Below, piece by piece: positions 15,010 to 64,000 of a stretch of 64,000 nt of DNA (its first letter is position 1; each line of letters begins with the position of its first letter). The DNA is from Mesorhizobium sp. (GTDB lineage Bacteria > Pseudomonadota > Alphaproteobacteria > Rhizobiales > Rhizobiaceae). Below the pieces are notes generated by a model. The model worked only from the letters and a program-made list of their open reading frames with translations, was not told where the DNA came from and ran no database searches. The stretch lies in assembly GCF_016793485.1 (NCBI RefSeq), contig NZ_JAEULZ010000006.1, positions 154,083 through 218,082 of the forward strand, written 5' to 3'. A program made the translations under genes and the position numbers.

Positions 15010-15057
15010 GAAGGGTCGTCCCTTCGTTGATGGGCAAAACGCCCGAGGCCGTCCTCG
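15010..15057 (-). promoter_or_regulatory. Guanidine-II (mini-ykkC) riboswitch upstream of sugE
   Basis: On the minus strand two hairpins occur in tandem: CGAGG-ACGG-CCTCG (15057-15044) and GAAGGG-ACGA-CCCTTC (15025-15010), joined by an 18-nt linker. Two stems with ACGR tetraloops are the defining architecture of the guanidine-II class. The second hairpin lies a few bases before the AGAGGAG ribosome binding site of sugE, so ligand-dependent control of translation is likely. The structure is seen directly; the assignment rests on the known motif and its usual partner gene. Confidence 0.9.
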
Positions 15058-15103
15058 AACGCTTCTCTACGCTATCCGCGCACTCAGGGGAAGGACCGCC
15101 CGG

Positions 15104-33472: not shown

Positions 33473-33722
33473 CGGGTTGGTCTTTTCGATAAGCTCGATC
33501 TTATTGTCGTGGCCATCGCTTCAGCGGCTTCTCGCGCTGGATGGCATCACGAATGTCGAAATGCTCCTCGTACCAGACGAGCCTCTGCACACCGTAGCGC
33601 GCGGTAAACTGCGAGCCCTTGCCTTGCTTGTGCTCGGGCATGCGCCGGCCGAGCCAGTTGGTCACGCCGATATAGATGGTGCCACGCTTCTGGCTGGCGG
33701 TCATGTAGACGTAGCCGGTCAT
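33473..33722 (-). pseudogene. Frameshifted GIY-YIG nuclease gene
   Basis: The intact frame (33501-33722) codes 73 residues: MTGYVYMTASQKRGTIYIGV, TNWLGRRMPEHKQGKGS, VWYEEHFDIRDAIQREK. Family members run about 90-100 residues and continue ...KRWRRQWKIELIEKTNPDW. Here the frame stops at CAA-TAA, but the next frame reads KIELIEKTNP (33502 down to 33473), so two bases of a Trp codon appear to be lost. The tail beyond NP is gone too. The catalytic GIY-YIG core is still encoded, so a shortened product is possible. Confidence 0.7.
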
Positions 33723-34106
33723 GCATTGACGGTATGAGGAGAGCCCAGAGGCAGCAAGGTCTGCTGTGTCGCGCGCTTCGCGAATGGCACGGCATGGATC
33801 CTATGGTCTACGCGACGGCCTTTGGCCTGCTCCGCCATAGGATGACGAATTCGTGGGTTGACGCGTCAGCGCTTCCAGCATGGACACCCCTTCCACCCAA
33901 TCCCTTGATTTCATTCACCCCACCAAAAAATCCGCCCCGTTTTATCCACGCCCCCAAAACCTCCTGCATAATCCTTCGCATCGCTCTCGCGGGAACCGGG
34001 TCCGGACCGGGGATCAGGGAGGGCGACGGCGCCGGATCGGTCGCGCCGGGCTGATAGCGGGCAGGCGGGCAACCGTTTGCCTGACATCATGCCCTTACGG
34101 CGGCGC
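33723..34106. other. Intergenic region before the structured element
   Basis: About 380 bases without a credible gene; open frames here overlap each other on both strands and have no ribosome binding sites. A pyrimidine-rich stretch lies at about 33890-33970. A possible -10-like CATAAT is at 33967-33972. Several small inverted repeats occur between 33990 and 34085. Part of this may belong to the RNA-like element that follows. Confidence 0.4.
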
Positions 34107-34434
34107 GGCTGGGTGATGAACCCCCAGATCCGGGCCTCAACGGAGACCAGCGGCAACGGCCGTGTCCTCCGCCGGGGCAAGAACGCCGGACGGGCGGCCG
34201 CAAGGTCGCATAAAAACTACAAGATGAGCGATCGAACGGCCGCCCGTCTTCCCACCTCCCGGCACCGGGAGCGCTCTTTGAATGGCCAGATGCTTCGGCA
34301 GGCGTGGCAACGACCACGCGTGCCGCAAGCCCAAACGGGCGTCGCGCCCTATGGCGCGCCCTCGCGGAGGCCAGCGAGCAAGGCGAGCGCGCGGCCGTGA
34401 GCGAAAGAAACCGACGTGGCAACGGATAGGTGCG
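34107..34434 (+). ncRNA. Candidate structured RNA element, copy A
   Basis: Positions 34107-34189 match 63973-63891 (minus) with six mismatches over 83 bases. Next come three hairpins: H1 34189-34200 with 34237-34248 (12 bp, 36-nt loop), H2 34256-34261 with 34266-34271, and H3 34291-34300, TGC-TTCG-GCA, a cUUCGg tetraloop. CGCTCTTTGA follows H2 and GGCGTGGCAACGA follows H3. In the other copy the sequences of these stems differ but pair equally well, which supports an RNA of this sense. An extra stretch of about 110 bases follows GTGGCAACG in this copy. No protein frame is conserved between copies. Family unknown to me. Confidence 0.6.
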
Positions 34435-34454: not shown

Positions 34455-34620
34455 TTCCTCGCCCCTGCGAAGCGGGGGAGAGGTGGATCGGTCCGCAGGA
34501 CCGAGACGGTGAGGGGGGAGCAACAGTCGCCGTTCGAGCCCGACCGGGACATGAAGGCGCTAAGACCCCCTCTCCGTCCGCTTCGCGGACACCTCTCCCC
34601 CGCTTCGCAGGGGCGAGGAA
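34455..34620. repeat. RIME-like palindromic element, copy 1
   Basis: 31-bp perfect inverted arms at 34455-34485 and 34590-34620 (beginning TTCCTCGCCCCTGCGAAGCG and ending CGCTTCGCAGGGGCGAGGAA) enclose about 104 bases. It resembles Rhizobium intergenic mosaic elements. It sits directly after structured element A and before trpF; the same pair, in the same relative order, occurs on the minus strand at 63564-63973. Confidence 0.8.
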
Positions 34621-63746: not shown

Positions 63747-63973
63747 CGCACCTCATCGTTGCCACGCCCTGCTTTCGCAGTCTGGCTTCTGTCAAAGAAC
63801 GCTCTTCGCCGCCGGGAAGAGAAGTCGGGAAGCGGGGCACGGGGCCTTGCCTCTCATATAAATTTTACGTGGCCGGTCTCCCGCGCCCCGCCGGTGTTCT
63901 TGCCCCGACGGAGGACACGGCCGTTGCCGCTGGTCTCCGCCGGGGCCCGGACCTGGGGGTTCATCACCCAGCC
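63747..63973 (-). ncRNA. Candidate structured RNA element, copy B
   Basis: Minus-strand copy of the element at 34107-34434. The 83-base block is 63973-63891. H1: 63891-63880 with 63843-63832, a 12-bp stem with one G-U pair and a 36-nt loop, the same loop length as copy A though the stem sequence differs. H2: 63821-63816 with 63807-63802. H3: 63780-63769, CTGC-GAAA-GCAG, a GNRA tetraloop in place of UUCG in A. CGTTCTTTGA and GGCGTGGCAACGA are kept. The upstream end lies near the right edge of the window, so the element may extend beyond it. Confidence 0.6.
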
Positions 63974-64000
63974 AGCGCGACCGCAGCGCTGACCGATCCG

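Follow-up and report, generated by a model that had tools for sequence, protein, structure and literature searches.

A candidate family of modular structured RNA genes in Rhizobiaceae, at some loci followed by a small cysteine-motif protein

Two copies of the element in the window

Two copies of one element lie in the window, by which we mean the whole 64,000-nucleotide stretch of Mesorhizobium sp. DNA analysed here: copy A on the plus strand (33979-34312) and copy B on the minus strand (64000-63761), the latter incomplete because the window stops at a contig end. BLAST aligned the two at 91% over about 95 bases, and a recount bore out the near-identical block (83 bases, six mismatches) that an earlier note on this DNA, made from the letters alone, had described. 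The limits given there for copy A (34107-34434) had to be moved, as its real start is ~130 nt further upstream and conservation stops near 34312.

Ahead of copy A on the same strand stands a putative promoter (33944-33972) made up of a -35-like ATCCAC (33944-33949), a 17-nt spacer and a -10-like CATAAT (33967-33972); it matches our promoter pattern exactly (contig C45:188026-188054), and its motif is also found in the 49-locus alignment described below. We infer that the RNA starts ~6 nt past the -10 hexamer, at about 33979, where domain D1 (33979-34026), a 5' hairpin with a GGGAA strand, begins; the match to our R1 model runs from 33979 to 34195 (128.2 bits). Also covered by R1 is domain D2, a core of type I (34027-34188, exact ends placed by eye), which is closed by a CGGC/GCCG helix and has an extended tip (~34047-34100), a GGGU-GAUGA-ACCC hairpin and a variable hairpin. 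Domain D3 (34187-34253; L001:1688-1754) is a long hairpin with an A-rich loop, followed by UUCCC; then come the H2 stem (CTCCCG/CGGGAG, 34256-34271), which is not kept in all relatives, and domain D4 with its UUCG loop (34284-34308). Beyond the conserved element lies a 103-nt insert (34313-34415) flanked by GTGGCAACG repeats (34304-34312 and 34416-34424, by eye), with a like arrangement at a locus of another species (L044).

The promoter and 5' part of copy B fall past the contig end. Its type I D2 (63889-64000, minus strand) gave an R1 match at 64000-63885 (model positions 57-175, 90.2 bits), and is followed on the same strand by D3 (63827-63893, from folding), H2 (CTCTTC/GAAGAG, 63802-63821, by eye) and a D4 with a GAAA loop (63761-63786), for which the like sequence of locus L003 was folded. 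The earlier note had called D3 and D4 H1 and H3. H1 does fold in both copies; its description as a 12-bp stem with a 36-nt loop did not survive, that of copy A having 13 bp plus an inner 6 bp and an 18-nt loop. H2 is present in A and B but is no general stem, since many relatives are without it, and the swap of H3 tetraloops (UUCG in A, GAAA in B) was borne out, the folded loop in 41 of 42 unique copies being GAAA in 20, UUCG in seven and another loop in the rest.

Both copies are followed by an inverted repeat of ~165 nt (CCTCGCCCC...GGGGCGAGG; 34456-34620 and 63729-63565), which is separable from the RNA because other copies have different sequence after them. Beside copy A there is also a small ORF on the minus strand (33501-33722) that we recognised by eye as GIY-YIG nuclease-like.

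Copies in this genome and across Rhizobiaceae

Searching this genome for further copies gave 29 matches, and since many contigs end inside the element the two halves of a copy are not to be counted twice; counting the profile matches by hand we arrived at ~10 type I copies (nine with the 5' part, ten with the 3' part), of which three are unbroken (copy A, one at 50.8 kb of contig C37, and one on C22). Repeat copies are the likely reason that several contigs of this assembly end inside the element. Other core types are additional to these, at L225 and, by eye, at L212. The RNA is present in named isolates as well, e.g., Mesorhizobium sp. YM1C-6-2, which carries the exact core pattern at 17 places; Pseudaminobacter arsenicus CB3 and P. 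salicylatoxidans DSM 6986 are further named isolates.

Model R1, covering the 5' part and the core, was trained on 32 sequences drawn from the genus and from close relatives. At an E-value of 0.001 it matched 67 of 394 Rhizobiaceae genomes, in 27 of 109 genera, the copy numbers across the family being lower bounds as seven places per genome were scored. In other genera there are loci, not all of them used in training, at which the model reaches 88 bits or more, which shows that the element is not a chance match. A second model (E 1e-4) matched two of 347 genomes in an order-wide sample and one of 337 in a class-wide sample, all from the window's own genus, with filters so strict, and at most seven or eight places per genome scored, that distant forms could be missed. 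Core-pattern matches in Pacificoceanicola, Xinfangfangia and a Planctomycetota MAG reached 14-16 bits in nhmmer and were dropped as chance.

Fold and covariation

In an alignment of 31 sequences from at least 14 genera, 29 of the 41 pairs showed changes on both sides, 95.6% of cells were paired (28-50% in slid versions) and 145 cells had both-sided changes, against 44 in shuffles; these counts lean towards structure because the alignment was fitted to R1 and includes some training sequences. Six of the seven pairs of helix 1, in D1, changed on both sides; helices 3-7 of the alignment belong to D2. The stretches GGGA, GAUGA and GGCAAG are invariant and unpaired. D3 could be followed even though its stem sequences differ widely: all 40 of 40 sequences (64-77 nt) form a basal stem of 8 bp or more. 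They were cut out by a pattern requiring a UUCCC-like end (the pattern missed one of 41); four rows were trimmed anew manually, and one that duplicated a locus already in the set was omitted. Our core search pattern failed to find the core in 13 of 49 loci. The earlier note had proposed a structured RNA and named further homologues with covarying stems as the sign to look for, and such homologues were found in the 27 genera. Protein coding, against which it also argued, is unlikely on the covariation of the stems, with the frames judged by inspection.

The note had recognised no RNA family, and Rfam agreed: when the window and 37 locus entries were scanned with cmscan, none of 4227 families matched the element at the gathering cut-off, the matches in the same scan being a tRNA and a guanidine-II riboswitch, both away from the element. 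The latter (mini-ykkC; 15011-15060, minus strand, 33.6 bits) is a feature of the window in its own right. A lax Rfam scan of copy A gave sub-threshold matches, none above the cut-off.

The loop of D3 is mostly unpaired and differs between copies of one genome, as might be expected if the elements were trans-acting antisense RNAs whose D3 loops pair with mRNA targets, the linked protein described below being their chaperone. We regard this as quite improbable, since within a genome the variation of the loop is limited and the loop is G-poor (by eye).

A putative promoter ahead of most copies

Most copies are preceded by the motif [A/T]TCC[C/A]C, 17 nt and CATAAT. We aligned 49 loci (a few entered twice) on the best CATAAT-like hexamer of each, in which at least five of the six letters were present in 32 loci and three or four in 17; because the hexamer was chosen by fit, its conservation is partly built in, and the upstream motif alone is independent. 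That motif, -35-like and 17 nt upstream, had T in 73%, C in 73%, C in 65% and C in 83% of loci at its main positions. TTATCCAC ahead of the -10 resembles a DnaA box, a reading we dropped as many copies have TTATCCCC.

A strict form of the promoter pattern found 32 sites in six genomes and its reversed form none. Thirty of these sites were fetched, and directly after 23 of them there was a match to model R2 (E 0.002 or better). Among the other seven, an RNA was visible by eye at L228, L230 and L225 and part of one at L235; L223 and L229 lead to an ORF instead, and L236 is a contig end. Family-wide, the promoter pattern matched in 85 of 365 genomes and 46 of 109 genera, with two control matches, and at 29 further promoter loci examined by eye we saw a D3-like hairpin at 14, an ORF starting MDW or MNW at three, an unclear arrangement at four and a chance-like site at eight; the reversed-pattern control thus understates the background because these eight look like chance.

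At four loci, L223, L253, L255 and L256 (genomes G190, G112, G311 and G352), the promoter pattern leads to related ORFs starting MDWxxAI or MNWETAI with no full RNA, and at L253 the ORF comes immediately after a D1-like hairpin.

Placement of the RNA-only copies

The gene downstream shared the strand of the copy in 47 cases and was on the opposite one in 24, as counted with a crude gene finder and with protein loci included, and most copy positions were unshared between congeners when 2.5-kb flanks were compared. Copy A, which precedes trpF, is missing there in three congeners (G001-G003). We had considered it as a trpF leader and rejected this on the trpF orthologues of these genomes, which are without the element and in which conservation starts ~58 nt before the end of the match used. 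One place is shared: the downstream flank of copy B also follows a copy in G002 (L055). The flanks of L055 are split in this genome between L030 and copy B, which suggests rearrangement or recombination between copies.

Such scatter brings up the possibility that the RNA-only copies represent a mobile or repeat element of non-autonomous kind (bacterial SINE- or MITE-like), carrying a folded RNA, that spread from a protein-linked locus and whose function is spreading. Many copies and mixed orientation are used as marks of mobile elements in passages of PMC11109978, and to the mixed strands and the few positions common to congeners may be added the copy numbers of this genome and of YM1C-6-2 and the lack of copy A before trpF in the three congeners. 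Against this, no transposase-like ORF recurred among the neighbour clusters listed, and a transposition test at two loci found one to be conserved on one side and the other to be missing from a congener along with 2.4 kb, with no target duplication established at either. One RNA query had no match in 72,556 plasmid or 50,697 phage records. The RNA-only copies also retain the promoter motif and the pairing. We therefore consider a purely mobile origin rather unlikely, while keeping it as a serious competitor.

An origin in phages or plasmids was set aside on that RNA query and on one protein query, which had no match in plasmids; the exact 43-base pattern of this genus was likewise found in none of the viral contigs.

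Exchangeable cores

The RNAs behind the promoter share D1, D3 and D4 but not the core, of which there are four or more kinds that occur side by side in a single genome. The types were set by eye: I (that of copies A and B), II, III and IV in the initial six genomes, with additional ones in other genera. In genome G130 a D3 of one class (ACGGGCGG) is found with three core types (I, II and III) and a D3 of a second class (GCGGGGCGCG) with two of them (II and III), in a comparison in which the D3 finder picked the wrong place in three of 23 rows (L224, L234 and L243). Core II has a fold of its own, with 16 of 62 pairs showing both-sided changes among ten sequences (six from G036, three from G130 and one from G250), and is closed, as is core I, by a CGGC/GCCG helix. 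Rfam had no match among 19 loci of other cores and variants. At L225 (contig 40 of this genome, core IV) the next small ORF is without cysteines in the motif that we describe next.

A small cysteine protein downstream

When the neighbours of the RNA were clustered, one ORF recurred immediately downstream, encoding a small protein with the motif C-x4-C-R-x3-C. In this family three cysteines are invariant, a fourth is usual and arginines are many. The protein was found in 60 of the 394 family genomes, 45 of these being among the 67 with the RNA, so that at the cut-offs used the protein went unmatched in 22 of 67 RNA genomes and the RNA in 15 of 60 protein genomes; the Fisher test for this co-occurrence ignores shared ancestry. 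At the 30 best-placed protein loci (the remaining matches are mostly weaker) the RNA was upstream on the same strand in all 30, of which 14 came from the search alignment and had been found via the RNA and 16 lay outside it, 13 of them new to inspection. A set of 61 near relatives gave ten protein matches in eight genomes, eight with the RNA upstream; the other two were L110, where a D3-like hairpin was seen by eye, and L111, which has stop codons. At seven of the 30 protein loci, spread over four genera, the same convergent gene lies alongside, which we take to be quinone oxidoreductase-like, and the locus is therefore old. Most carriers have one locus with RNA and protein gene, and some have two or three; the remaining copies mostly consist of the RNA alone.

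Behind cores I, II, V and VII the cysteine motif occurred at four of 59 promoter sites, where ~1.5 to 1.8 were expected from the window's rate and control frames gave none, which points weakly to an excess over chance; it also occurs behind core III (L113). Searches of 18 of the proteins against Pfam, NCBIfam, PHROGs and PADLOC identified no family, with matches of single members at E 0.0068 or worse, and a profile search of PDB sequences found no relative (best E 1.2). The structure model of the protein was poor (mean pLDDT 64.4).

With the RNA directly upstream of the gene at each of the 30 best-placed loci, it could be a cis-regulatory leader, either a riboswitch or a protein-binding site, of the cysteine protein gene, the RNA-only copies being decaying duplicates; the invariant unpaired GGGA, GAUGA and GGCAAG would suit contacts with a ligand or tertiary contacts. 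The RNA-only copies, however, are more numerous than the protein-linked ones, are not consistently upstream of the same gene, and retain their promoter motif and pairing: across 16 such copies from a single genome 98.3% of cells are paired, a weak test because just three of 41 pairs vary on both sides. A leader function alone is in our judgement unlikely.

Discussion

Taken together, these sequence comparisons support an RNA family with a defined fold, its promoter motif, its modular build and its linkage to the small protein. The explanation we favour, to which we give a probability of about 0.45, is that the element encodes a structured non-coding RNA belonging to a modular Rhizobiaceae family with a partner protein. 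The RNA would be ~250-330 nt long and transcribed from its own promoter. It begins with the 5' hairpin D1, continues through the multibranched core D2 and the long hairpin D3, and finishes with D4, a short hairpin at the 3' end; D1, D3, D4 and the promoter are kept while the core is exchanged among family members across Rhizobiaceae. From the anatomy of the loci we infer that the small protein, perhaps zinc-binding, binds the RNA, that the RNA copy in the protein's own mRNA would give feedback control, and that the RNA-only copies would act in trans as partners or sponges of the protein.

A bolder and more tentative version, which we think possible without expecting it, is that of a ribonucleoprotein platform in which one promoter and one chassis of D1, D3 and D4 would accept several unrelated cores, every core being matched to a particular variant of the C-x4-C-R-x3-C protein, the parts being mixed as cassettes and the RNA-only copies acting in trans. 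We hold back here because the cysteine motif behind other cores is just weakly above chance. If this were so, a genome would possess a modest set of RNAs that differ in specificity under a common regulatory signal. An RNA that occurs in a quarter or so of the sampled genera (27 of 109), with a promoter motif, a linked protein and exchangeable cores, and that is matched by no library searched, gives a direct route to asking if interchangeable parts on a shared RNA chassis are something that bacteria make use of.

No description of such an RNA was found in the open-access literature searched, which included passages of PMC3927594, PMC11109978, PMC8632094, PMC2864571 and PMC7143759. The nearest likeness is to the alpha-r14 (NfeR1) and SmelA075/A099 sRNAs, which, in the passages of PMC7143759 and PMC3927594 that treat them, also have several copies per Rhizobiaceae genome and are built of hairpin modules. 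According to the former, the loops of the three alpha-r14 hairpins carry an anti-Shine-Dalgarno motif, whereas CCUCC is missing from the middle part of all 35 D3 rows compared here, and neither alpha-r14/NfeR1 nor SmelA075/A099 is reflected in an Rfam match to our element. The Rhizobiales-2 motif (RF01723), given as an example in the earlier note and listed in PMC2864571, is likewise a structured RNA of Rhizobiales, but cmscan found no match to it at the gathering score in the window or the 37 locus entries. OLE RNA (PMC12265935) is also a large folded RNA, one that works with proteins; it is found in many Gram-positive species, and the present element has no Rfam match. The element differs from HEARO/IscB-type guide RNAs both in having no Rfam match and in that no nuclease ORF recurs downstream among the neighbour clusters listed. 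Type III toxin-antitoxin systems have tandem RNA repeats and a ToxN-like endoribonuclease; the copies aligned here have one RNA unit per locus (L128 has two in a row), and PADLOC had no match for any of the 18 proteins. CsrA with CsrB/C is a protein with RNA sponges in trans, and the likeness here is in the proposed logic alone, one small RNA-binding protein with several RNA partners; compared by that same logic, the partner RNA in the present family would also be the leader of the protein's own gene, and its cores would be exchangeable.
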